A stretch of 64,000 nt of DNA from assembly GCF_015687155.1 (NCBI RefSeq), contig NZ_JADPQF010000003.1, forward strand, positions 248,001-312,000, in the 5' to 3' direction. Source of the stretch: Aliikangiella sp. G2MR2-5. GTDB taxonomy: Bacteria > Pseudomonadota > Gammaproteobacteria > Enterobacterales > Kangiellaceae. Below the pieces are notes generated by a model. That model was given only the letters and a program-made list of their open reading frames with translations, ran no database searches and had not been told where the DNA came from. How positions within the stretch are numbered: position 1 is the first letter of the stretch; each line of letters opens with the position of its first letter. A program made the position numbers and the translations under genes. Of this stretch, positions 22,993-49,244 are shown piece after piece.

Positions 22993-23874
22993 CTAATATT
23001 CAAACTTTTCCAGAGAACTGAAGGTCTGCAAATGGGGTTGCACCAGGCAGGACTGAAGTTCCTGAATTGAAACACTGGAACCCGTAGTTGATTTTTCACC
23101 TGCCTTGCTCGTATGGATCTCCAGGATGGTTAATTTTTCTTTACTGGAAAACTCATTGAAAAGATCTGAAAATTGACAAGCTGTTTGTAGAATTTTCTCA
23201 ACCTGATTAGAACGAGTGTCAGGTATTTCTTGCTCGCCGGGGTTGCTTGCGTGACTTTCAAGCTGCGCTATCCTCTTTTTATTTTCAAGACGCAGGAACT
23301 CAAATTCCTTTGCTTTTTCACGCAAAACTCTCAACTCTTCATCGATTGTTTTTTGCTCTTCTTTGGTGGCATTTTTTCGAATTTTTTCTAATTGACGACT
23401 TTGTTCCCGTACCTGGTAAGCTGCATGCGATATTTCTCGAGCTTTAAGATCAAGCTGTGCTCTATTTAACCTGCTATTGGGTGCTGTAGTATTGGGTGCT
23501 GTAGTACTGGATGATATGCTATTGGAGTGAGCTAACTCTGGCTGTGGCATGACTTTCTGCTCTTCTCGGACAGAACCTGTATTTGATTGCTTTTCTCGCT
23601 GTTTTTCACTGGGTGAGTAGTTTATCGTGATCAAAATTCCTTGCTTGAATAAATAGTTGATTTGAATAGTTTTGTTTGATTCGGAAAAGCTTTTATCAAT
23701 ATTTTTCTCTTGTGTTTGATTTTCTTGTTGTAATAATTGATATTGAAGTGTATCCAATGTCTCCTGCACTTTACTCAGCTCGGTCGTATCTCTCGCCTCG
23801 CACAGCTTAGCGCTAATACATATCGTTACAAAGGCAATAAATTTGGTAAAAATTGATAGCTTAGTTGTTCGCAT
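22993..23874 (-). CDS. Exported coiled-coil protein, unknown function
   Basis: 293 residues. A signal peptide (residues 1 to about 27, KLCEARD) is followed by a Gln-rich helix (LSKVQETLDTLQYQLLQQENQ), a Ser/Thr-rich spacer with a short repeat (TTAPNTTAPNS), and a long predicted coiled coil (about 140-215: LKAREISHAAYQVREQSRQLEK through ENKKRIAQLES). The C-terminal quarter has two Cys residues (TACQF and QSCLV). The family is unknown; the layout is that of a periplasmic or envelope scaffold. It lies downstream of the M9 peptidase on the same strand across a strong hairpin. Confidence 0.7.
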   Translation of the reverse strand: MRTTKLSIFTKFIAFVTICISAKLCEARDTTELSKVQETLDTLQYQLLQQENQTQEKNIDKSFSESNKTIQINYLFKQGILITINYSPSEKQREKQSNTGSVREEQKVMPQPELAHSNSISSSTTAPNTTAPNSRLNRAQLDLKAREISHAAYQVREQSRQLEKIRKNATKEEQKTIDEELRVLREKAKEFEFLRLENKKRIAQLESHASNPGEQEIPDTRSNQVEKILQTACQFSDLFNEFSSKEKLTILEIHTSKAGEKSTTGSSVSIQELQSCLVQPHLQTFSSLEKFEY

Positions 23875-28275: not shown

Positions 28276-30201
28276 ATGAAGTCTATGTGTAAAAAAACAG
28301 TTATTCATTCGAAAGTAGTTTTCTTGCTAGCTACGATTCTGAGTTTTACTGTTCATGCTCAAGGAGAAAGCGGGGCTGAACAGGCAACATCTGACCTTAT
28401 GCCGGATTCGGCAGCTCCAGTTGTCGTTGTAACCGGTACCAGACATGAAAAAGATGATGCGCTGATCAATGATTTTGTGAGCATTGATGAAGTTGCCAAA
28501 GCACCAAACTCGGTTGTGAAGCTTTTGGATAATCAGCCAGGGTTGGCGGCCAATGGTCAGCCTGGCCTATTTCAAACAATCAATATTCGTGGACTTGCCA
28601 GACAAAGAGTCCAAGCCTATATCAGTGGAATGCGAATAACTTCAGAGCGTCGAGCAGGCATTGCCGCTTCTTTTGTTGATCCGGCCTTGTTGTCCGGAGC
28701 AGAAGTAACCCAGGGACCGGCATCAACCTATTATGGGAGCGGGGCGATTGCGGGTACGATACATCTTCAGACTCGTCAGGAAGATCGCCCCTGGATGATG
28801 CTCGGATATCATGCTGATGGGAATGAATGGGTTACTGCGGGGGGGACTGGCGACGACACCTATTCGATAAATCTGGCCTATCGAACCAGAGACAATGGTG
28901 AAACAGTTACAGGTACTCCGAAAAATAACCAGTTTTCACAACATTCACTAAATTTTGTTCGTCATTTTGAGTTGGGTAACTACAACCTTGACTGGCAGGT
29001 AATTGAAAGCCAGGGCAGAGATATTGGTAAAGATAATCTGCGCTTTCCGGAAAGCAGAATTACCTCCTATCCGGAAGAAAATCATTTACTGTCACAGTTG
29101 ACTCTCAGTAGTGACGCAAGCTGGTTTGCTCGACTTTATTTTCATGATCAGGATTTAGTCACCCAGGATATTCGACCTGAAAATAGAATTAATCGAGTAA
29201 CAACTAACTCGCTTGATATAGGTTTCAGTCTGGAAGACAGTTGGCAGCAAGGAGACTGGAAAGGAATTTATGGCGTTGAATACTTTGGACGGCGAGGTGT
29301 GGATAGTGTTGAAGAAGAAATCGATATTGCTACGCGAGCAAGCCAAAGTTATTGGGCGCTTGAAAGCGGTGAGGAAAATGAATCTGCATTATTCGCCACG
29401 ATTAACCGGGAGTTTAATAGCTGGTCTTTTCATAGTGGTATCCGAATTAATTACTTGTCTCAAAAGAGTGACATTTCAGAAAGTTTAAGTGATAGTTATA
29501 CAACTTATTTCTCGACGCTAAAGAAACAGTTGGGAGACTGGGAACTTGGTGTTAGTTACGGAACAGGATTTAGATTTGCAACAGTTTCGGAGCGGCTTTT
29601 TAATGGAACGACTGCGCGAGGGCAAGTCCTGGGAAATCCGGATTTATTACCGGAAGAGTCTGAATCTTTGGATCTTAGTGTCAGCTATGCAGGGGAATCA
29701 TTAAAGTTCGAAGCTCACGGTTTTAATACCGATATTGAAAACTTCATCGAACGAATCAGCATTGACGATGATACCAGGACTTTCAGAAACATTACTGACG
29801 GTAAAATTTCAGGTTGGCAGTATAAATCTGAATATATTGCCTCTAACTCTATTTCATTGGTTTTGGCTGGACAGGGAATAAGTGGTCATGATGCCGATGG
29901 CAACTGGCTAGCGGATATTCCGGCTGAAAGAAACTCTTTATCACTACTATATCAACCAGACAACTGGATAACGCAGCTTAGCTATGTCAAACGCTCCGCA
30001 AAATCCAAGGCTGGTGACGGAGAGGTTCCCTTAGACGCAGCAGATATTATTGATTTTAAACTCGGTTATCGAATCAACCCGGACTGGCGAATACAGTTTG
30101 TTATTGAAAACCTTTTGGACGAAGCATACTTTAGTTCTGCCGACGATCTGGCTACTCAGGCTACCGGTAGAAACTTTGGTTTAAGTATTTTTTATCGATA
30201 G
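28276..30201 (+). CDS. TonB-dependent outer-membrane receptor
   Basis: 641 residues. A signal peptide (ending VHAQGE) precedes a plug domain with a TonB-box-like start (APVVVVTGTRHEKD), LLDNQPGLAANGQPGLFQTINIRGLARQRVQAYISGMR and VTQGPASTYYGSGAIAGTIHLQTR. The barrel includes the TonB-receptor signature near GNPDLLPEESESLDLSV and ends with the FGLSIFYR terminus (FVIENLLDEAYFSS upstream). By motif it is like haem or siderophore receptors, but the substrate cannot be set. It takes up a ligand across the outer membrane with energy from TonB-ExbBD, none of which is encoded here. No Fur box recognised upstream. Confidence 0.92.
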   Translation: MKSMCKKTVIHSKVVFLLATILSFTVHAQGESGAEQATSDLMPDSAAPVVVVTGTRHEKDDALINDFVSIDEVAKAPNSVVKLLDNQPGLAANGQPGLFQTINIRGLARQRVQAYISGMRITSERRAGIAASFVDPALLSGAEVTQGPASTYYGSGAIAGTIHLQTRQEDRPWMMLGYHADGNEWVTAGGTGDDTYSINLAYRTRDNGETVTGTPKNNQFSQHSLNFVRHFELGNYNLDWQVIESQGRDIGKDNLRFPESRITSYPEENHLLSQLTLSSDASWFARLYFHDQDLVTQDIRPENRINRVTTNSLDIGFSLEDSWQQGDWKGIYGVEYFGRRGVDSVEEEIDIATRASQSYWALESGEENESALFATINREFNSWSFHSGIRINYLSQKSDISESLSDSYTTYFSTLKKQLGDWELGVSYGTGFRFATVSERLFNGTTARGQVLGNPDLLPEESESLDLSVSYAGESLKFEAHGFNTDIENFIERISIDDDTRTFRNITDGKISGWQYKSEYIASNSISLVLAGQGISGHDADGNWLADIPAERNSLSLLYQPDNWITQLSYVKRSAKSKAGDGEVPLDAADIIDFKLGYRINPDWRIQFVIENLLDEAYFSSADDLATQATGRNFGLSIFYR

Positions 30202-38126: not shown

Positions 38127-41100
38127 ATGATTGGATATAAAAAGCGGTGTAATAAAGATGATAGGGTGAGGATAAACTCACCTAGTAACAAATTACACTC
38201 AAGATTATTGCTAACTATTGCAGCCGGTATTACTAGTTTTACGCTACAAGCACAACTCCCCGCCGGTCTCGAAGGTGGGGCGGGTGGCTCTATGTCGCAA
38301 GAGCAAAGGACTGCCAAGTCCAATATGCAAGTTGGCAGTAGTGGAGCTGTTTCGTTTAGTCTTCCATTAGGTGGTGGTCAATCCGTTTCTTATTCGTCTA
38401 GTGGCGGCTGGCATGCAGGTTCAGCTCCTGGTGTTATTGGGCGTTCAGGGAAGTTTGGTCAACCCAAATATAACGATTCAGATATCTTTACATTAAACGG
38501 CCAGGAAATGGCGTGTAAAGCTGGAGATTGTGGTAAGGATGGGGTGTACCACTTAAAAAATGAGTCTTTTCAAAAAATAGAATATATTGACGATGGTGGC
38601 AACGGCTACTGGAAAATCAGAAATAAAGATGGCAGTTTTAGTGAATATGGGGTGAACACCAACACTCATGTTAACAGTGTCGCTACGCCTGATACTGCGC
38701 CAGCCCCTCGTCAATGGATGTTATCTTACACCTACAATCCAGCTAACGGTCAAGAAACAAAATATTATTATGACCAGGAAGAATTCAGTAATGAAGTGAC
38801 ACTGCTCAGAGTCACTTCGAAAAATATTGCCTCCAGTCTTAATGCTTCGTGTACAGATTTTTTCTATTGGGAAATGCCGCCTCAAACGCAATCATTTTCT
38901 TATCGAGATGGGTATTTAAGTGGAAATAAACGATATCTGAGAGAGGTTGTTAATAAAGTAGACTGCTCAGAATCAACGGGATATCGAACCTCCAGAGTTA
39001 GACTACACTGGGAGACATCTCCTAAAACCAAGCAGCACCGCATAACACAAATAAATACTTATGGTGCAACTGATAGCGATGCAAGCAATCCTTACAAATT
39101 TACTTACTACGATCTTAATGAGGGCTTTACGCAACCTTATGATCTTGGAAAGCCCAACTCTGCTAACAATGACGCGACTACTGAATACTCTGACCAAGTG
39201 ACTAAAGCTGAATTAATCGACATGAACGGTGACGGACTGCCCGACAGAGTGCGTAAAAATGATTCTGAGGATAGCTTTAAGATTTGGCTCAATGAAGGTA
39301 ATAGCTTTGCTTCTTCGTATCAGGCTTGGGATCAGGTTTTATATGCCGATGATGGTATTCGAGAAGGAGAACTTGAGGGCTCATACGGAACACTCTCTTA
39401 TACCGATCTTATCGATATGAATGGCGACGGCATTTTAGATCGAGTTCGTAAAAACCATGAAGATGGAGAGGGAAGAAGCCAGCACTTTAATATCCACTTT
39501 GGTAATGGCTCAGGCTTTGAGCAAGACCCCGTGATATGGGACGATCCTGACCAAGGAGATGGAACCCATGGATTTGTAGAGGGATACAGTTTAAGAAGTT
39601 CCAGCAATACCGGCACTATCGTTGATATGGTTGATATGAATGGTGACGGGTTACCTGACAGGGTTTACATGGGCTCATCGACAAACTCAGACATGTTTGA
39701 GTTAGATTATATAAAGTATAACGATACAGGTGACGATGGAAATGAAAAAGATGCCAGAGATACCAACATATTCGTTGCGCTTAATACGGGAAATGGATTT
39801 ACCAATCCGATGGATTGGGGGGATCTGAATATACAAGCTCATGCTAAAGGCTGGATAAGTACCTCAAAGAACCTTCGTCATACAGAAGGCAAAGAAACCA
39901 TAACTGACCTAATTGATATGAACGGGGACGGATTACCCGACTGGGTGTTATCTTCTTCACGAGGCTATGCAGATGATGATCCTGATACGCGTGATCCCCA
40001 TGGGTTTTATGTTTGGTACAACAACGGCAGCGGCTTTGAAGCGCCCGTTATGCTCGGTGGCAAAAACGAAGAAATATCTACCGATGGAAAAGAGTTTGCT
40101 GTTGCTTTAGATAAATACAATATCCGTAGTACAGAAAATGACCGAACAATTGCAGATTTGATGGATATGAACGGTGATGGTTTGCCGGATCGTGTTTTTA
40201 AATCTAATCAAACGGATACAGGCTATACCTTAGGCAGTATGCTGGTGCGTTATGGTGTGGTAGGTAATGCTTTTGATGCTGACGAGCATTTGTTAGCAAA
40301 ATCCGATGGCAGTAATATTGATGACGCTGCGCTTCGTTTTAATGATGGCTCCAACTCTGTTTATGCTTTTCATGATATGAACGGCGACAGCTTAATTGAT
40401 CGAGTAGGTAAAAGCCCTGAAGGCGTTTTTGTTGTCCATTTAAATAGTGCTTACCCTTCTGAGACCATGCTACACACGGTTACTAACCCCAACGGAGGAA
40501 AAACTACTTATCGGTATCAACCGTTAGATTTGGGACCTGTAAGCAACAATAGTGACTTTGGCAATAAACAATGGGTAGTTTTAGATAAGGTTACCGATGA
40601 TGGCGTTGGCAATAGTGGCCGTTCAGAAGCTGAGCGTACAACACGCTACAAATTTTTCGGCGCAAAGTATGACCGAGAATCTCGTCGCCACCAGGGCTTT
40701 GCAAAAATGATGACGACAGCACCAACAGGTGATGTCACTGAAACTCACTACTTACAAACAGAAGGTTTAGAGGGAAGACCCTGGAAAGTCATTACGCGCA
40801 GGAACGGCCAAAATGGACTTATTTATGGATATAAAAAATATACATATACCAGCTATCATAACGATACTGATAATTATGCTAACGGGATCAGCCAACCTCG
40901 CCTATATCCTTTTTCAAGTTTGTCGGTAGATACTACTGCTTACTTATTGGAAAACGAAGTTGATTATCTAATCAACGGCAATACAAACTCTGAAATTGAC
41001 AGCAATGGAGACGGTATACTTGACGCACCTGCAGGTAATAGCAACAACTACCGTGTTAAACGTGTTACTCATGAGTTTGATAATTACGGAAATGAAATTG

Positions 41101-44100
41101 TTGTAACTGACCATGGTTTTGTCAATAGTGCAGACCCTATGATTGAAAAGGGAATGGATGATGTAACCACCACTACCTCCTTTGTTATTAGTGTTAATGG
41201 TACAGATGCTTATCAATGGTTAATGAAACCTAATCAAATTGATATCAAGCAAAAGAATGGCAATGGCGCTTACTACACGGAAAGAACGGCTAAAAAAATC
41301 TGGTATGTCGACGGCAGTTTCAGCTCGCCAGGAACTCATATAGTTAAGGTATGGAGTTATGCTAGTAGCGCAACCGATGATTACATAGAAGAAAAGTTTA
41401 GCTATAACACAGGGGAAGGTGAAAATCAGCTTTTAGCTTCTAAAACTGATGGTAATGGACATATAACTACCTATAACTATGGTCATACAACACAAAAGCA
41501 CCTGGTTACTTCCGTGAACTATCCATCCGTCCACGACAATATTAGCCACTCAACTTCGACCAGTTATGATGACTATTTAAGAAAGCATATTGATAGTGAT
41601 TTTAATAGCAGAAATACAACTTACACTTATGATGGATTTGGTCGTTTAAGTACTGTAACCAACGCAAGAAATGTGATGTCAAATAGTTATACTTACGTTG
41701 ATTATGCAAGTGCTAGTAGTCCAGCCTACACGGAAGAAGTTCGCTTTAAAGACAGTGCTCACTCTGGCTATAAGAGTCGAGTTTATGTCGATGGCTTTGG
41801 TCAAACGATTCAAGAGAAAAAAGAAATTTCAGGTTCAGAGTATCGAACAGTGAATTACTGGAACTATATTGATGACAATAAAAATGTGAAAGAATCCAGT
41901 GCAACATTCACTTCGCCTAATTTTAGTTTCTCCCGCGGCGCAACTCCAATGTCAAAACGTCCTACAATAAGCCCTCATATTGGTTCTCGTACAGAGTTCT
42001 TTCTTTCTGATGGTCAGGATGATTATGGTTTAGGCCGTATAACCAAAACTACCTCTCCAAGTGGCAACGAAACTTACTCTATCGACAGGATATTTGAGGT
42101 AGTCAATATTGATGCCAACGAGCATGTGAAACAAAATTTTATTGATGAAGTTGGGCTAACAATTTATCACAGGGAATACACAGGTAAATTTCCTTCACAC
42201 CAGGTTTATTCATCTACATCAATTACCACCACTTTTAACAAAGTGACTTTAACTGACCATATGGGAAATATCTCGACATCAGTTAAAGACTGGCTTGGGC
42301 GTAAAATACGAAGCAATGATATGGATCGTGGTCAATGGTTTTATCAATATGACAACAATGGCAACCAAACTCATGTCACTGATGCGCTAGGTGATACAAC
42401 GGTAATGTCCTACGATGTGTTAAACAGAGTAGTGACCAAATCTTACGATGATGGTGGTGAAATAAGATATTATTATGATGGTGATTATAATGGTGATGGT
42501 GTGATCGATCTGGAGAACCAAAAAGGTCGACTTAACCATGTCTCAGATCTCAGTGGTGATACCTATATCGGCTATGACCCATTAGGCTATAAACGCTGGG
42601 AATCAAAAAGAATTAATGGAATTTCAATAAGTCAGCAAACTCAATACAGATATAACTCAGCAGGTGAACTGACAAGAATGCAGATCCCAACTCTTAGTTC
42701 AAACTGGATCGACTTTGGTTATAACCAAGGCGGCGAGTTAATTCAGGTTGGCGATGTAGTCACCGATATTGAATATAACAATCGCGGTAATCTGGACAAA
42801 ATACACTTTCCAGGTAGTTATCAAAATTATGACTATTATGGTTACACAAATGATCATCGTCTGCGTCGTATTGATAGCAAAAAGACGGATAATTCTCCGC
42901 TTTATGGCTACGAATATACCTATGATAATGTGGGGAATATTTTGAATATTACTGCAACCAAAGCTGGAACCGGACAGCCAAACTTAAATCGTGCATATAC
43001 TTACGATGAAATGAATCGTGTAAAAGCACAAACCAATGGAAGTTACTACGGCGTAGGAACTGAAAACTTTCAATACAACGAAATTGGTAACATCACTGTT
43101 AAAAATAGTATTAGTTACAAGTATCCTGATGCAGGTGACGCTCATCCTCACGGACTAACTCGGTTTGGAAACCGTACCTACGGTTACAATGACAATGGTG
43201 ATATCACCAACTACAACGGCACGACAGTCACTTATAATAAAGCTCATCAAGTTGAAAGTGTGGGAGACGAGAGTTACTTATATGACTATACTGGCCGCCG
43301 GGTTAAAAAAAACAAGAACGGAAATTCCACATACTATTATAGTAAATATCACGAGAAACGCGACGATGCTGACATTGTTTATTATTACGCATTGGGGCGA
43401 AAAATCGCACAAAGAAATTTCAAATATGGTGGAACACCACGCTTTTATCATAGCGATCATTTAAGCAGCACTAGCGCCATATTTGATAGTGATGGTGACG
43501 AAATTCAATTTAGCGCTTACTCCACTTTTGGTACGACTGTTCATGAGTCAGGAGTAAAATCCACTAGTTATCAGTATACCGGTAAAGAGCAGGATAGTAC
43601 TGGGCTGTATTATTATGGTGCTCGTTACTATGATCCTGCCATTGGGCGGTTTATTCAGGCGGATAGTCTTTATGATCCTGGGGCTGGGATACAAGGCGTT
43701 AATCGATATAGTTATGTTGCGAATAATCCTGTTAAGTTTAATGATCCTACTGGGCATTCATTAGCTGAAGGAGCTAAAAATTCTGGAGAAGTAGATGATG
43801 CCAAACCTAAAAAACAAGACTCTCCTCCACCTTGTACGAAAGGAAATTGCCCACCATTAAACCCTAACATTGACTATTCTCCTGGGAGCGGTCTTACATT
43901 CCATCTTTATACGCCAAAGACGTATCATATCATCCCTAAGACAAAATACCCTCACCCTATGTCTGCGTATCCAAGCGATGCTCCGACAATGTACTCTGTA
44001 GGAACAGCAAAACTCTCAGCAACAGTAGACTCTGAAGGGCTTCATGTGGGTCCTGATTTATCTCTCGACTTTACAATATATAACCCTCTTGAAGGTGGAA

Positions 44101-44453
44101 AATTTGAACAAACTACAGGCTTCATTTTGGGCGGCGCTACATTTACAATAGATATTGATGAGAATGGAATAAGCTGGGATATTGGAGTTACTGGCCCAGC
44201 AACAGAAATAAAGCTAGCTCATAATGAATCAAAAAACGCTATTGGTATAGCTGTTGGATCAGGATTTAAATTTAGTGGTACCATTGGTGATTTAACACAG
44301 CTACCGCAAATGCTGGAGGATGTTAGCACTACAGTAAATGCGAATATGGAATACATTGAAGCTAGAAAAGAGCACAATTTGCAACATCGTAACGACAAAG
44401 ACTGGAGTATTTATCGGTTTTATAACTTACCTTCCTCCGGTGTGTTCTATTAG
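38127..44453 (+). CDS. Large SpvB/VCBS/RHS-repeat exported protein with unknown C-terminal domain
   Basis: 2108 residues. A signal peptide (LLLTIAAGITSFTLQAQ) precedes an SpvB-like N-terminal region. Six calcium-binding-like repeats (DMNGDGLPDRV and variants) lie near residues 364, 429, 502, 597, 680 and 750. A TcdB/RHS segment has YD-type repeats (YTYDGFGRLSTVTNARN, YQYDNNGNQTHVTDALGD), followed by the RHS core (YYGARYYDPAIGRFIQADSLYDPG, NRYSYVANNPVKFNDPTGH) ending about residue 1876. The last 230 residues are beta-rich and match no toxin I recognise. RHS proteins usually carry variable toxic tips. No small immunity-type gene follows directly. A strong 14-bp hairpin follows the stop. Confidence 0.92.
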   Translation: MIGYKKRCNKDDRVRINSPSNKLHSRLLLTIAAGITSFTLQAQLPAGLEGGAGGSMSQEQRTAKSNMQVGSSGAVSFSLPLGGGQSVSYSSSGGWHAGSAPGVIGRSGKFGQPKYNDSDIFTLNGQEMACKAGDCGKDGVYHLKNESFQKIEYIDDGGNGYWKIRNKDGSFSEYGVNTNTHVNSVATPDTAPAPRQWMLSYTYNPANGQETKYYYDQEEFSNEVTLLRVTSKNIASSLNASCTDFFYWEMPPQTQSFSYRDGYLSGNKRYLREVVNKVDCSESTGYRTSRVRLHWETSPKTKQHRITQINTYGATDSDASNPYKFTYYDLNEGFTQPYDLGKPNSANNDATTEYSDQVTKAELIDMNGDGLPDRVRKNDSEDSFKIWLNEGNSFASSYQAWDQVLYADDGIREGELEGSYGTLSYTDLIDMNGDGILDRVRKNHEDGEGRSQHFNIHFGNGSGFEQDPVIWDDPDQGDGTHGFVEGYSLRSSSNTGTIVDMVDMNGDGLPDRVYMGSSTNSDMFELDYIKYNDTGDDGNEKDARDTNIFVALNTGNGFTNPMDWGDLNIQAHAKGWISTSKNLRHTEGKETITDLIDMNGDGLPDWVLSSSRGYADDDPDTRDPHGFYVWYNNGSGFEAPVMLGGKNEEISTDGKEFAVALDKYNIRSTENDRTIADLMDMNGDGLPDRVFKSNQTDTGYTLGSMLVRYGVVGNAFDADEHLLAKSDGSNIDDAALRFNDGSNSVYAFHDMNGDSLIDRVGKSPEGVFVVHLNSAYPSETMLHTVTNPNGGKTTYRYQPLDLGPVSNNSDFGNKQWVVLDKVTDDGVGNSGRSEAERTTRYKFFGAKYDRESRRHQGFAKMMTTAPTGDVTETHYLQTEGLEGRPWKVITRRNGQNGLIYGYKKYTYTSYHNDTDNYANGISQPRLYPFSSLSVDTTAYLLENEVDYLINGNTNSEIDSNGDGILDAPAGNSNNYRVKRVTHEFDNYGNEIVVTDHGFVNSADPMIEKGMDDVTTTTSFVISVNGTDAYQWLMKPNQIDIKQKNGNGAYYTERTAKKIWYVDGSFSSPGTHIVKVWSYASSATDDYIEEKFSYNTGEGENQLLASKTDGNGHITTYNYGHTTQKHLVTSVNYPSVHDNISHSTSTSYDDYLRKHIDSDFNSRNTTYTYDGFGRLSTVTNARNVMSNSYTYVDYASASSPAYTEEVRFKDSAHSGYKSRVYVDGFGQTIQEKKEISGSEYRTVNYWNYIDDNKNVKESSATFTSPNFSFSRGATPMSKRPTISPHIGSRTEFFLSDGQDDYGLGRITKTTSPSGNETYSIDRIFEVVNIDANEHVKQNFIDEVGLTIYHREYTGKFPSHQVYSSTSITTTFNKVTLTDHMGNISTSVKDWLGRKIRSNDMDRGQWFYQYDNNGNQTHVTDALGDTTVMSYDVLNRVVTKSYDDGGEIRYYYDGDYNGDGVIDLENQKGRLNHVSDLSGDTYIGYDPLGYKRWESKRINGISISQQTQYRYNSAGELTRMQIPTLSSNWIDFGYNQGGELIQVGDVVTDIEYNNRGNLDKIHFPGSYQNYDYYGYTNDHRLRRIDSKKTDNSPLYGYEYTYDNVGNILNITATKAGTGQPNLNRAYTYDEMNRVKAQTNGSYYGVGTENFQYNEIGNITVKNSISYKYPDAGDAHPHGLTRFGNRTYGYNDNGDITNYNGTTVTYNKAHQVESVGDESYLYDYTGRRVKKNKNGNSTYYYSKYHEKRDDADIVYYYALGRKIAQRNFKYGGTPRFYHSDHLSSTSAIFDSDGDEIQFSAYSTFGTTVHESGVKSTSYQYTGKEQDSTGLYYYGARYYDPAIGRFIQADSLYDPGAGIQGVNRYSYVANNPVKFNDPTGHSLAEGAKNSGEVDDAKPKKQDSPPPCTKGNCPPLNPNIDYSPGSGLTFHLYTPKTYHIIPKTKYPHPMSAYPSDAPTMYSVGTAKLSATVDSEGLHVGPDLSLDFTIYNPLEGGKFEQTTGFILGGATFTIDIDENGISWDIGVTGPATEIKLAHNESKNAIGIAVGSGFKFSGTIGDLTQLPQMLEDVSTTVNANMEYIEARKEHNLQHRNDKDWSIYRFYNLPSSGVFY

Positions 44454-44649: not shown

Positions 44650-45177
44650 ATGATCAAAAAAACGCTTAAAACTCACTCACTTTCTATTATTGCATGTGCG
44701 CTAACCATATCTTCTGCATTTGCAGAAGTACAAACTGCCGAAAGATTTGCAGCGAATAACCTGGAAAAAGTTTCAATTAAACAATTAGACATCAAAGAAT
44801 TGAGAAAAAGTACTGCCGCAATTACTACCTCTGAATTAGTAGAGCTAGAAAAAAGTGTTTCCGACGCTGAAGTAAAAGAATTGGGAGGTAACATCAGAAA
44901 CATCTCCGATGCAGAAGTGAAAGAACTCGGCGGCAACATTGGTAATATTTCTGATGCTGAGGTGAAAGAGTTGGGCGGCAATATCGGTAACATTTCTGAT
45001 GCTGAAGTGAAAGAGCTAGGTGGTAATATCGGCAATATTTCTGATGCTGAGGTGAAGGAGTTGGGCGGCAATATCGGTAACATTTCTGATGCTGAGGTGA
45101 AAGAGCTGGGCGGTAATATCGGCAATATTTCTGATGCTGAGGTGAAAGAGCTGGGCGGCAATATCGGCAATATTTGA
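44650..45177 (+). CDS. Exported protein of seven identical 15-residue tandem repeats with a Gly-Gly motif
   Basis: 175 residues. Sec signal peptide ending SSAFA-EV. A linker (AERFAANNLEKVSIKQLDIKELRKSTAAITTSELVELEKSV) leads to seven copies of SDAEVKELGGNIGNI (copy 1 has Arg for Gly), and the frame stops right after the last copy. Each repeat contains EVKELGG, reminiscent of double-glycine leader motifs of exported peptides (typically E-L-X2-I-X-G-G), but one residue shorter between the hydrophobic position and GG. The N-terminal linker reads like an extra, unrepeated version (ITTSELVELEKSV). AAAAGGTG ribosome-binding site. Function unknown. An outer-membrane zinc-peptidase/barrel gene starts 40-64 bp downstream and may be co-transcribed. 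Confidence 0.85.
   Translation: MIKKTLKTHSLSIIACALTISSAFAEVQTAERFAANNLEKVSIKQLDIKELRKSTAAITTSELVELEKSVSDAEVKELGGNIRNISDAEVKELGGNIGNISDAEVKELGGNIGNISDAEVKELGGNIGNISDAEVKELGGNIGNISDAEVKELGGNIGNISDAEVKELGGNIGNI
44860..45174 (+). repeat. Seven 45-bp in-frame tandem repeats
   Basis: Units at 44860, 44905, 44950, 44995, 45040, 45085 and 45130, each 45 bp. Copies differ at third codon positions (for example ctc/ttg/cta/ctg for Leu and gag/gaa for Glu), while six of the seven protein repeats are identical. Confidence 0.95.
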
Positions 45178-45216
45178 TTATTATTGAAAGGTGCTTTATG
45201 AGGTATCGAAGTCGTA

Positions 45217-48195
45217 TTGTGTAGTTGCGGAATAAATGAAGTGAGGCACCTGTTCTTTCCAAATGTAAAACGGAGTAATCCATTTTTGTATTTTATTTTT
45301 CTCGTTTACATTTACTCCCCGAACGCCTTTGCAAATGATGAGTGGTTAAAAAAGGAATCTGAAAATTTTATTGTTGTCTTTAAGTCTCAGCATAGTAATT
45401 ACCTGAATGATGTTATCAAAATTGCAGAGTCGTCATTAACTCGTATCGGCACACTTCTTGACTATAAGCCTCCAAAAAAGCTTTATATCAAATTAGTTGA
45501 CCATCGTGATGAAGGCAGTGGTAGAGCAACTTCGCTGCCTGTTAACCGAATAACAATTAACCTGTCATCCTATACGGTCACCGATTATGAATATAAACTC
45601 GTTTCCAATACGCTAACCTGGCTTGTTAGCCACGAGCTAGTACATATTGCGGTTTCTGATCAAGCTACCCCGCTACAGGAATTGATGAGAAAACTATTTG
45701 GTAAAGTCATGCCAAGACGGTCATCCCCTTTATCGCTCATTTATTCAAGTCTAGCCAACTCCGAAGTTTATTCACCTGCTTGGTACCATGAAGGGATTGC
45801 TGTATTTTTTGAAACCTGGCTAAACACCGGTAAAGGCAGGTTATTTTCTGCGTTTGATGAAATGTATTTTAGAACGTTGGAAAAAGAAGGATTGTTAACT
45901 GTCGCGCGCAGTGAAAACCAATGGCATCAAGCGAATATTGCACATGACCAATTTATTGTCGGTGCTAAAGCCTATCTATTTGGCAGCCGCTTTATTCTGC
46001 ACCTATCAAAAAAGTATGGTGTTGAACAATTACTCGCCTGGATTAAAGTATCAAAAAAATCGAACACCTTCAGCTTTGAAAAAAAATTTAAGGAGGCTTT
46101 TAATGTCACTATTGAAGCTGAGTGGTCCTGTTTTATTGAGGAAGAATCAGATTTTCAGCGTAAAAATCTTTCAAGACTGGCTTTATCTCCAGTCACTTTA
46201 ACAAAACCGCTTTCTTTAAGAAATGGCTGGGTTAGCCGTCCTGCTATAAGTCGAAATAAGGAGATTATTTATGCTTCCTTTGAGCCCGGTGAGTTAGCAA
46301 AACTAATAGCTCTAAATGTTGAAAAGGGAACCGAGCGAATTATTGCGGACATACCAACGCCAGGCCTAGTTAGAGTTAGCGAACTTTCTTTATTGAAAGA
46401 AACGGTTTTTTTTACCACGCACAATAACTCAGGTTACCGAGATTTATGGAGTATAAATATAGACGGAAAAAATAAGAAAAGGATATGGAAAGATGCTCGA
46501 CTTAGCCATTTAGCTGTCAACAATACCAGTGGAGAACTATGGGGAATAAAAAAAACAGGCATGAATTTCGCTTTGATTAAGCTAGAAGCGCCATTCACCA
46601 AGTACCAGCATGTATATACTCTGCCGAAAAATATCGTATTAACCGATCTGGCTTTTAAAAAAGATGGAACCAGATTACTTGCGACCCTTAAGTCGGATAA
46701 AATTGAGCAATCAATTGTTTCGATCGATGTAGAAGCGTTAGAGCTTCAGAGTAGATTCTTATATAAGGTAATCTCAAACTCAGGTAATCCAGAACACCCA
46801 AGTTGGGGAACCTATAACCAAGATAAAATTTACTGGCACGCGACAGTCAATGGTGTATCCAATATCTATTCGCACGGTATTAATGACGACACTAATATTC
46901 AGACCAATACCTTGACGGGACTTTATTCTCCGCTCGAATTCGACGAAAAAAAAGTATTCGCCTTTGAGTTTAATAGCCAGGGATTTAGCCCCGTTACGTT
47001 TGACTTGAACAAAGCTGATGAGAAACAAATTGATAAGCAAGTTAATGCGATAAATTTTAAGGCGCAACAACTTGTTCTGGACCACCCGCCATTATTACAA
47101 TGGAATATTAATAATTCAGATGCCACCTCGACTAATTTTGATGAACCTGTAAGTGTTTATTCAGGGTTGTTCTCGATGGAACGAATTTCTTCCATACCGG
47201 TATTTGGCTATTTTGATAATAAAGCAGTCTTCGGTGGATACTTTGAGTTTGCCGACCCTCTGGAAACTCACAGTTTTCGGCTCGGAATAGGAAAGTCGAA
47301 AAATAACTTTCATATAGATGCAAATTACTTGTTTGAGCATAAGGTACTAGTTAATTATCAACAAAAGCCCATGAGTTTCTATAATTACTCCAAAGAATCA
47401 GCAAATGAAAAGCTAAGTTCATCTCTTGGTTTAGAACTTAAACATTATTGGAGATATGATCGGCCATCAGAAGTTTCGCAGATATTTTATAGTCGTCTTA
47501 ATCAGCAAAGAACTCAAGATAATAGTGCGGTTAAACAAAGCTCTTTTCATATAGGGACAAAGCTTCAATTTAAAAGCTTGAGAAAAACCATCGGTTATTC
47601 CGGCTACGAACATGGGTACAAAGTCGAAATAGACTACCAGCATATTTTTAATACTAATGCGCTTATTGAATTCAGCGAAAGATGGTCAGCAAACCTGAAT
47701 TATATGCATCCTATTTTTTTGCAGCACAATATTTTAAATTGCCAAATCTCATATGGTCAATATACAGGAAAAAAATTAGATGCGGGTATATTCTATTTCA
47801 GTGATTCTGATTCTGGTTTTTTCGAAGAAGGAACGAGCCGACGGTATCAACTTGAACATTACCTGGCAAACACAAAACTTGCTGTTGGTGCCAAGAAATA
47901 CAAAAAGCTATTAATTGAAAACCGTTTTCCTCCTTTTTCGATAAGTGCTAAAATTGGGCCTCTAACTTTTAATCGAGCGGATCTATCAGTATATGCAATG
48001 TATACTGATATTGTAACTTTTGACTCACCCTCTTATCTTGATTCCAATAAATATTGGGGTATTCAAATGACATCTTACTTTGACACCGTGTACTCATTGA
48101 ATTCAAGCCTGTCAATAGGCTATGTTTCGCCCCTAGATTCAAATAGCTTTAAAGATGGAAAGCTTTATCTCTATGCTAAGTTCTTTCAATTTTAG
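45217..48195 (+). CDS. Surface zinc-peptidase (peptidase MA-like) with beta-propeller and outer-membrane barrel
   Basis: Up to 992 residues. The start is uncertain: TTG at 45217 or GTG at 45241; neither has a strong Shine-Dalgarno, but a signal peptide (LYFIFLVYIYSPNAFA-ND) follows in either case. The peptidase domain has HELVH (His139, Glu140, His143 from 45217) and the third ligand in YHEGIAVFFE (Glu192), as in MA-like gluzincins. A middle section with WD/TolB-like repeats (VEKGTERIIADIPTPGLVRVSELSLLKETVFFTTHNNSGYRDLWSIN-type units) is followed by a C-terminal region of alternating strands ending KLYLYAKFFQF, typical of an outer-membrane barrel. Surface or secreted. Confidence 0.85.
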   Translation: MCSCGINEVRHLFFPNVKRSNPFLYFIFLVYIYSPNAFANDEWLKKESENFIVVFKSQHSNYLNDVIKIAESSLTRIGTLLDYKPPKKLYIKLVDHRDEGSGRATSLPVNRITINLSSYTVTDYEYKLVSNTLTWLVSHELVHIAVSDQATPLQELMRKLFGKVMPRRSSPLSLIYSSLANSEVYSPAWYHEGIAVFFETWLNTGKGRLFSAFDEMYFRTLEKEGLLTVARSENQWHQANIAHDQFIVGAKAYLFGSRFILHLSKKYGVEQLLAWIKVSKKSNTFSFEKKFKEAFNVTIEAEWSCFIEEESDFQRKNLSRLALSPVTLTKPLSLRNGWVSRPAISRNKEIIYASFEPGELAKLIALNVEKGTERIIADIPTPGLVRVSELSLLKETVFFTTHNNSGYRDLWSINIDGKNKKRIWKDARLSHLAVNNTSGELWGIKKTGMNFALIKLEAPFTKYQHVYTLPKNIVLTDLAFKKDGTRLLATLKSDKIEQSIVSIDVEALELQSRFLYKVISNSGNPEHPSWGTYNQDKIYWHATVNGVSNIYSHGINDDTNIQTNTLTGLYSPLEFDEKKVFAFEFNSQGFSPVTFDLNKADEKQIDKQVNAINFKAQQLVLDHPPLLQWNINNSDATSTNFDEPVSVYSGLFSMERISSIPVFGYFDNKAVFGGYFEFADPLETHSFRLGIGKSKNNFHIDANYLFEHKVLVNYQQKPMSFYNYSKESANEKLSSSLGLELKHYWRYDRPSEVSQIFYSRLNQQRTQDNSAVKQSSFHIGTKLQFKSLRKTIGYSGYEHGYKVEIDYQHIFNTNALIEFSERWSANLNYMHPIFLQHNILNCQISYGQYTGKKLDAGIFYFSDSDSGFFEEGTSRRYQLEHYLANTKLAVGAKKYKKLLIENRFPPFSISAKIGPLTFNRADLSVYAMYTDIVTFDSPSYLDSNKYWGIQMTSYFDTVYSLNSSLSIGYVSPLDSNSFKDGKLYLYAKFFQF

Positions 48196-48359: not shown

Positions 48360-49244
48360 GTGATTAAGACACTATTTCATATTGAACAAAAAAATTCCTC
48401 AATTCCTAAGGTATATTTAAAAAGGAGATACAATGGACTAGAGAAGTTTGCAGATAGAAAAAGTTTTCGACCAAAGATCTCTACTAAGAATAAGATTACC
48501 ATTGGGCTATTATTTGTTCACGTTTTGGGTGTTTTAGTTGTTTTACTATTTCAATTTCTCGATCAGGCAAACCAAAACCAGTCAGTCGTTGGTGAGTTAA
48601 TCTATTTCTTCTTGCCAATATTACTTGCGACCCCCGAGCTAGGGAATATTATCTATAGCCCTCCCGAAAGAGGGTGTTCACGACTCAAAGTCTGTACTAC
48701 ATGGTATTCTATATGGGGGTGGGGAGGATTGAGTACTCTGCTTGTTGCGACACTATATTACCAGTCAATTGATAGTATTTTTACAGTTTTAACTGGTATT
48801 GTATTTATTTACTTAGTTTCAACACTTTATTTTCTTTACACTCGATTGAGATACTTTTCTAAGAAGCAAAATAATACCAATATTTCTGGTGCAACCCCTA
48901 ATCTAGAAGACAGTGGAGCAATGAATATAGTGGCGCAGAAACAGGCGATTAGCTACGAAGTTGATATCAGCGAAATTTTGTGGATAAAGTCGAACGGAAA
49001 CTATGTTGATATACATGCACGAAATAAAAAATATACAAAAAGAAATACTCTAAAATCTCTTGAAAATAAGTTACCAACAAAGTTGTTTAGGCGAATCCAC
49101 CGTTCAACAATTGTTAATATCCAATATATTGAGAAGGTTCTTTCATCTGGTGATGGAACTGCTACTTTAGTTATGTGTGGTGGAGAAAAACTTTCGGTTA
49201 GTCGCTCTTATCGGAAGAATGTTAAAATATTACCTCAATCTTAA
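48360..49244 (+). CDS. Membrane protein with LytTR DNA-binding domain
   Basis: 294 residues. GTG start. Four predicted membrane segments (TIGLLFVHVLGVLVVLLFQFL, LIYFFLPILLATPEL, WGWGGLSTLLVATLYY, IFTVLTGIVFIYLVSTLYFLY) with no periplasmic domain of note, then a C-terminal LytTR domain from about residue 198: AISYEVDISEILWIKSNGNYVDIHAR, FRRIHRSTIVNIQYIEKVLSSGDG, LSVSRSYRKNVKIL. Such membrane-LytTR regulators sense a signal within the membrane and bind DNA directly. It is downstream of the peptidase gene (164 bp) on the same strand and could regulate the nearby repeat-peptide/peptidase genes (inference). Confidence 0.88.
   Translation: MIKTLFHIEQKNSSIPKVYLKRRYNGLEKFADRKSFRPKISTKNKITIGLLFVHVLGVLVVLLFQFLDQANQNQSVVGELIYFFLPILLATPELGNIIYSPPERGCSRLKVCTTWYSIWGWGGLSTLLVATLYYQSIDSIFTVLTGIVFIYLVSTLYFLYTRLRYFSKKQNNTNISGATPNLEDSGAMNIVAQKQAISYEVDISEILWIKSNGNYVDIHARNKKYTKRNTLKSLENKLPTKLFRRIHRSTIVNIQYIEKVLSSGDGTATLVMCGGEKLSVSRSYRKNVKILPQS

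Follow-up and report, generated by a model that had tools for sequence, protein, structure and literature searches.

Cell-surface signalling of the FecIRA type relies on three components, a sigma factor, an anti-sigma factor and an outer-membrane receptor. In two-partner secretion (TpsA/TpsB), a repeat exoprotein is paired with a barrel protein of the Omp85 superfamily. In double-glycine peptides, C39 domains cleave the leader in the cytosol. The locus described here lies in a 64,000-nucleotide stretch of Aliikangiella sp. G2MR2-5 DNA, which was analysed as a whole (the window); it consists of a short repeat gene and the peptidase gene that follows it (Table 1). Judging from its sequence, the repeat protein appears to be the exported half of a two-gene envelope module, being encoded directly upstream of a protein that combines an intact metallopeptidase motif with a TolB-like propeller and a probable Omp85-like barrel. 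The partner proteins of this module fall into two classes, A and B, and the window groups with class B.

Like FecIRA systems, many class-A loci string together an ECF sigma factor, an anti-sigma factor and an outer-membrane-type protein. Different from FecIRA, this last protein is a metallopeptidase with a propeller and a probable Omp85 barrel, not a TonB-dependent receptor; the exported element often has a tandem-repeat tail, and the window locus has no adjoining sigma or anti-sigma gene. Like TpsA/TpsB, the module places a repeat exoprotein with a conserved N-terminal motif next to a probable Omp85-superfamily barrel. However, no TPS or POTRA domain was recognised in it, its barrel protein also contains a gluzincin and a TolB-like propeller, and the class-A partners look membrane-anchored. 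Compared to TolB, whose ligands are Pal and the colicin TolB box, the propeller of the module is fused to a protease and a barrel, and other propellers score equally. The EVKELGG stretch of the window repeat resembles the end of a double-glycine leader; however, the window protein has a Sec-type signal, its sites are internal and the second G is unconserved. In the proteins scanned, Pfam and NCBIfam gave no name to either half, apart from weak domain matches, and the literature searched, which included few subscription papers, contained no paper on the module or the repeat. The module lacks defining features of FecIRA systems and of double-glycine peptides; it is apparently widespread and undescribed.

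The repeat gene (44650–45177, + strand) starts with an ATG, with AAGGTG 6 bases 5' of it, and encodes a protein of 175 residues. Residues 1–25 resemble a Sec signal peptide by eye and end in AFA; a linker of 45 residues separates this start from the repeat array. The preliminary description had read the frame as a Sec signal followed by seven repeats, the last of which ends at a repeat boundary. This reading holds, as seven 45-bp units fill the array and a TGA follows immediately; the stretch ITTSELVELEKSV in front of the array, which by eye resembles a further, degenerate unit, had been overlooked. Units 2–7 are identical in protein (SDAEVKELGGNIGNI), and unit 1 differs by an R for G at position 13.

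Table 1. Features of the repeat gene, the partner gene and the gene 3' of the pair (window positions)
Feature	Position	Strand	Basis or remark
Signal peptide MIKKTLKTHSLSIIACALTISSAFA	44650–44724	+	Sequence, judged by eye
VQTAERF, conserved mature N-terminal motif of the partner family	44728–44748	+	N-terminal HMM
Degenerate repeat unit ITTSELVELEKSV, residues 58–70	44821–44859	+	Sequence only, by eye
Seven 15-residue repeats SDAEVKELGGNI(G/R)NI, up to the stop codon	44860–45174	+	Sequence, Tandem Repeats Finder, class-B motif
Partner gene: exported gluzincin metallopeptidase / TolB-like propeller / Omp85-type barrel	45241–48195	+	
HELVH motif (HExxH)	45631–45645	+	Downstream Glu at 45790–45792
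TolB-like beta-propeller	46186–47025	+	
C-terminal beta-barrel, Omp85-like (probable)	47179–48192	+	Model strands, weak Omp85_2
LytTR regulator, possible part of the locus (uncertain)	48360–49244	+	Pfam LytTR 3e-26; adjacency only

That six copies are identical in protein while their DNA differs at third positions had been noted before, together with the claim that selection acts on the peptide. Both points are confirmed, the second strongly. Across the seven copies, each of the 15 third codon positions is variable, and the columns of the array require at least 20 substitutions, only one of which alters an amino acid, against a synonymous share of 24–33% expected by chance (P about 3e-11 to 1e-8). 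For the window array, pS is 0.74 and pN is 0.02 (over 6/7 units). The peptide is therefore held by selection, including residues that are usually free to change. Tandem Repeats Finder reported periods of 45 (7.1 copies) and 90 (3.5 copies) for the array; units 3 and 5 differ by one base, and so do units 6 and 7. This near-identity and the 90-base period indicate that the array is partly young and has grown in part by recent duplication.

The repeat protein itself was searched for in several collections. A scan of 84,980 collected genomes gave 118 pattern matches, of which none could be confirmed as a homologue, and phages gave no match. Within 61 neighbourhood genomes, its own included, matches were limited to its own genome, G041 and G001, and within 394 genomes of the order to its own genome and G041; by sequence, the G041 match is an EAKLDEA-type repeat protein and the G001 match is pentapeptide-like. 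With the N-terminus as the query, 40 genomes of the family returned the own genome plus G012 (E 0.055) and G063 (E 0.09), both of which are other proteins by sequence. The plasmid matches (53 records, 51 from Piscirickettsia and 2 from Lactococcus; best E 2e-5, 36% identity) were judged from the annotation of one record and taken as chance likeness of repetitive proteins. The earlier remark that the protein belongs to no known family holds for Pfam and NCBIfam, as the matches fall on the repeats and come from unrelated families. UvsW-1 (3e-8) and Dodecin (5e-6) scored above the Pfam cut-off on the window repeats, and STI1, UBQLN1, SPMIP5 and others were matched by the relatives' repeats; all were disbelieved, because many unrelated families match such repeats.

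The adjacent protease gene had been left unused in the preliminary description, and it is this gene that places the repeat protein. It follows the repeat gene on the same strand. Its frame is open from a TTG at 45217, and a GTG at 45241 is the start chosen here; the peptidase seems to start at one of these two codons, leaving a gap of 39 bp or 63 bp, respectively. The best-looking ribosome-binding site and ATG before it (GAAAGGTGCTTTATG, 45198–45224) open an eight-codon frame that is not that of the peptidase. H100, E101, H104 and E153 are invariant in all 43 aligned peptidases, the window's included. HExxH is present in 93 of the 97 rows, paralogues counted; three of the misses (L085, L028 and L094) are wrong-frame, wrongly trimmed or cut rows, and the fourth, L024 (HETMS), looks real.

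In a structure search of the peptidase protein, the listed matches were taken up by propeller folds. According to their titles, TolB–colicin peptide complexes are among them, with other propellers scoring as high; these titles indicate that TolB propellers bind peptides. The model of the peptidase protein has 17 strands between residues 616 and 949, and weak Omp85_2 matches were found in 12 of the 43 peptidases, the window's own not among them. The modelled barrel is probably Omp85-like; barrels of the Omp85 superfamily are C-terminal and have 16 strands. Cu_amine_oxidN1 was matched by six of the 43 peptidases (best 5e-7), presumably L033–L037 and L039, which have frames of ~1210 residues. The peptidase frame in L106 (G770) is broken by one TAA.

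Relatives of the peptidase are distant in 61 nearby genomes (21–29% identity), where no motif-bearing gene lies upstream of them. Four distant paralogues from the window's own family (L007, L008, L011 and L012) lack a repeat gene and adjoin what we take to be polynucleotide phosphorylase. In the order sample, matches were limited to the own genome and a single one in G058 (4e-31); a phylum sample of 398 genomes searched at 1e-60 gave the own genome only, plasmids gave no further peptidase relatives, and none of 74 pattern matches on viral contigs was confirmed. At class level (369 genomes), eight genomes matched at 1e-20, the own genome included, and closer relatives were present in three genomes (four genes, L022, L023, L024 and L029). 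L022 and L023 have a repeat protein upstream with a sequence quite unlike the window's, the N-terminus of the L023 protein lying beyond the sequence examined; upstream of L024 and L029 is a small alanine-rich, low-complexity protein, recognised neither by periodicity nor by HMM.

An alignment-based scan yielded 461 peptidase relatives, and by record titles the peptidase relatives bear more than 10 phylum-level labels. The best 80 of the 461 were analysed as loci, in which a partner was flagged when an ORF within 1.1 kb upstream either was periodic or matched an HMM built on the N-terminal region. Among these best 80, a partner was flagged upstream in 62 of the 67 loci with at least 1 kb upstream (55 by HMM), a count that is not independent, since the HMM was built iteratively from the same loci. 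None of the 80 was flagged downstream, where some have less than 1.1 kb. Of the five unflagged loci, three (L030, L032 and L041) show an upstream ORF that combines a signal peptide with IEKAERY, L063 has a long ORF with weak periodicity, and L031 has none. What we take to be a short REP-type transposase-like ORF lies between partner and peptidase in L041; the same ORF is found in L031, with no partner in view. The partner motif occurs in none of 12 paralogue controls outside the clade, one of which, L010, has an unrelated low-complexity ORF.

Twenty genomes chosen for holding the pair were searched genome-wide. Of these, 17 of the 18 class-A genomes carry a single partner and a single peptidase, and the remaining one carries both in duplicate; the two class-B genomes have one peptidase each, and the class-A motif is absent from them. 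By these one-to-one counts, there are no stray copies of either gene in those genomes. G772 (locus L076), titled Gammaproteobacteria, has two copies of the pair, on contigs C60 and C54.

The peptidase is present in 52 of the 164 genomes of G782's order (G782 counted). We also fetched a fresh set of 40 upstream stretches, seven of which repeat earlier loci; among the 33 new ones, 21 have at least 1.2 kb upstream. A partner was found in 18 of these 21 (3 class A and 15 class B), which are not independent events, as the fresh genomes all come from one order. The pattern [AS][EQ][VLI]x[ED]LG, fixed before the fresh loci were fetched, occurs in 14 of the 15 class-B partners. L156, L160 and L172 have no adjoining partner, indicating that the peptidase can stand alone; L171, which has another gene upstream, is probably a further such locus. 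In the 12 fresh loci with less than 1.2 kb upstream, L171 among them, a repeat array was visible in three (L161, L167 and L170).

Class-A partners have an N-terminus resembling a membrane anchor (by eye), a motif around GTIGG(VEKAE)KYRAEQITDKDVxL and then a tail; the tails are often repeats, with periods such as 6, 9, 11, 12, 18 and 27, and some have no clear repeats. Class-B partners have a signal peptide; their motif in most cases reads [VI]-x-x-[AS]-x-R-[YF], and their units are 15 or 16 residues long, for example SNSQLEELGSRYGFLR and IDRAQVQELGGGSIAA; the class-B unit motif [AS][EQ][VLI]x[ED]LG is common to the window array. In two quick peptidase trees, the window falls within the class-B signal-peptide clade (SH-aLRT 99). 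The nearest relatives of its peptidase are from Thiotrichaceae (35% identity; SH-aLRT 91 and 93 for the grouping), and the branch of the window is long. Both trees exclude rows of 550 residues or fewer; the first contains row L085 in the wrong frame, and the second leaves out L085, L013, L028, L086 and L094. With 51 rows typed by hand from their periods, repeat type tracks the peptidase tree, requiring 8 changes compared to a shuffled mean of 22.5 (0 of 200 shuffles as low). The 11-residue repeat group is not clustered on the tree (500 of 500 shuffles as low).

An ECF sigma gene lies upstream in 34 of the 47 loci, of both classes, that have at least 4 kb upstream. The 13 without one are eight class-B loci and the class-A loci L046, L067, L069, L092 and L093. 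The HMM used for sigma genes derives from ORFs of these same loci, and the sigma ORF of L042 was checked with Pfam and NCBIfam. In 8 of the 58 HMM-defined partners, an anti-sigma domain forms the N-terminus (E 1.5e-15 to 6.6e-24), and these gene fusions tie the repeat protein to a sigma/anti-sigma circuit. No ECF sigma or anti-sigma was found among the 12 other window-locus proteins scanned with Pfam. As no ECF sigma lies within 4 kb upstream in those eight class-B loci, a signalling role may not extend to the window. By eye, what we presume to be a sigma-54 type activator lies near L035, L036 and L039 and an HTH protein near L030 and L032, all of them class-B loci.

The reading that we prefer, and to which we give a little short of an even chance, is that the propeller-protease has the exported repeat protein as its multivalent ligand or its substrate. 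Once exported, the repeat protein would be marked for its partner by the N-terminal motif, and its 15-mers would serve the propeller/peptidase as multivalent ligands or as cleavage substrates. If every unit must fit the same site, the 15 residues would be fixed, the silent sites would drift and the copy number would be free. This reading draws on the adjacency in both sets of loci, the genome-wide pairing, the anti-sigma fusions, the place of the window peptidase in the tree, the agreement of repeat type with that tree and the TolB–colicin complexes; it is weakened by the poor similarity scores of the window protein and by the loci that have a peptidase and no recognised partner. In class A, the larger class, the partner looks anchored in the inner membrane and is linked to an anti-sigma factor; there it probably informs the cell of the state of the outer-membrane protein. 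The window version would lack the sigma circuit and be released. The alternatives are not all exclusive of the ligand or substrate reading.

The repeat protein may instead be cargo, as in two-partner secretion, with the Omp85-type barrel exporting it to the surface. In that case, the N-terminal motif would be a targeting tag, the peptidase would trim the protein, and the repeats would form a coat, adhesin or decoy outside. The gene order, in which a probable Omp85-like barrel adjoins a repeat protein with a conserved N-terminal motif, is consistent with such export, and so are the signal-peptide-like N-termini of class B. However, the class-A partners look anchored in a membrane by eye and some are fused to an anti-sigma domain, and the Pfam scans made gave no TPS or POTRA family, although both can diverge past detection. 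We consider export of this kind rather unlikely.

Purely structural repeats are a further alternative, in which an elongated rod or spacer would lie between the membranes or round the peptidase, its units being identical for folding and without specific docking. AlphaFold2 predicted a solenoid for the repeat array with pLDDT about 91 in the array, and the class-A partners look anchored at the N-terminus; both would suit a linker. However, the five models average pLDDT 78, 69, 46, 45 and 41, and the predicted solenoid has no good match among the solved structures of the PDB (best E 0.57). According to PMC11795689, AlphaFold2 produces confident false solenoids from perfect repeats, and we regard the predicted solenoid as doubtful. 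A continuous amphipathic helix was rejected, as the helical-range hydrophobic moments are not above those of within-unit shuffles (182 of 500 as high for the window); none of seven unit types stood out in this test.

The relatives' arrays also bear on the structural reading and on the preferred one. Partner length differs by 33 to 162 residues in four of six close pairs and hardly in the other two. The 162-residue difference separates L080 and L087, which are near-identical loci (508 vs 346 aa at 90% peptidase identity), and it argues against a linker, as does the window form, which has no evident anchor. Among 25 arrays of relatives examined, pN/pS is below 0.3 in 17, in favour of the ligand or substrate reading, and 0.3 or more in eight, with a maximum of 0.94 (L071); these eight, like the two pairs of nearly constant length, count against it. 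Homogeneous arrays together with a changing copy number are easier to reconcile with multiple copies of a single docking site than with a fixed-length ruler. A structural linker, which is not strictly exclusive of the ligand or substrate reading, is in our view distinctly unlikely.

A class-B N-terminal HMM, built from 21 relatives with the window excluded, ranked the window ORF 13th among 6725 ORFs (307 of which stem from the window), with a weak E of 0.07; the 12 ORFs above it (seven of them in the model) and the next five below are all partners. With a repeat-unit HMM, the whole window array ranked tenth after nine class-B partners (E 0.63), and the best single window unit ranked only 83 (E 180). 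The class-A HMM missed the window ORF, the first N-terminal HMM put it at rank 51 (E 34), and the core HMM at rank 641. The N-terminal and repeat motifs co-occur in 7 of the 6725 ORFs, namely six class-B partners and the window ORF, by two patterns that were written after these sequences were seen. Taken together, position, tree, signal peptide and motifs suggest that the window protein belongs to the module, as it appears to do jointly on these grounds without one strong score. That it is an unrelated orphan, upstream of the peptidase by chance, would agree with the direct searches, which gave no homologue, and with the weak HMM evidence; it is nevertheless improbable, as the signal peptide, the N-terminal motif, the ELG repeats and the position all match the subclass of the neighbouring peptidase.

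The preliminary description had proposed a multi-copy precursor cut after GG to release 15-mers, for which there are identical units with silent divergence, an adjacent protease gene, and GG in all window units, in some units of L038 and in L165, L169, L178 and L180; this is not supported and very improbable, because class-B units keep the first G and have D, W, A, S, T or G in place of the second, the signal is of Sec type rather than a leader, and the two C39 matches of the genome lie on contigs C35 and C31, with the window on C23. A different cut by the adjacent protease falls under the ligand or substrate reading.

A broader proposal is, in our judgement, possible while leaning towards doubtful. 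The module may be a new envelope signalling/secretion system of many phyla, in which fast-changing arrays of near-identical peptides would be read by an outer-membrane propeller-protease, the arrays being borne by an anti-sigma partner anchored in the inner membrane in class A and released as a Sec-exported protein in class B, the window included. If true, the class-B array would be a diffusible, repeat-encoded messenger, or an address tag directed at its own outer-membrane partner. The analysis ties an apparently orphan repeat gene to a conserved partner across more than 10 phylum-level labels, and the module offers a natural series in which the length, sequence and number of the repeats change while the partner enzyme stays. 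It raises the questions of what the propeller-protease recognises, how the outer membrane could drive a sigma/anti-sigma circuit in the absence of a TonB receptor, and why every residue of the unit is kept in some tandem-repeat proteins whose silent sites have drifted far.

The surroundings of the pair in the window showed some further features. Directly upstream of the repeat gene, an RHS protein of 2108 residues is encoded at 38127–44453, with matches to TcdB_toxin_midN and Rhs core. A TonB-dependent-receptor-like ORF (by eye) lies at 28276–30201, 14 kb upstream of the repeat gene, and a 15-bp short tandem repeat of 2.4 copies is located at 23475–23510. On the 3' side of the pair, the LytTR regulator has a hydrophobic N-terminal half.
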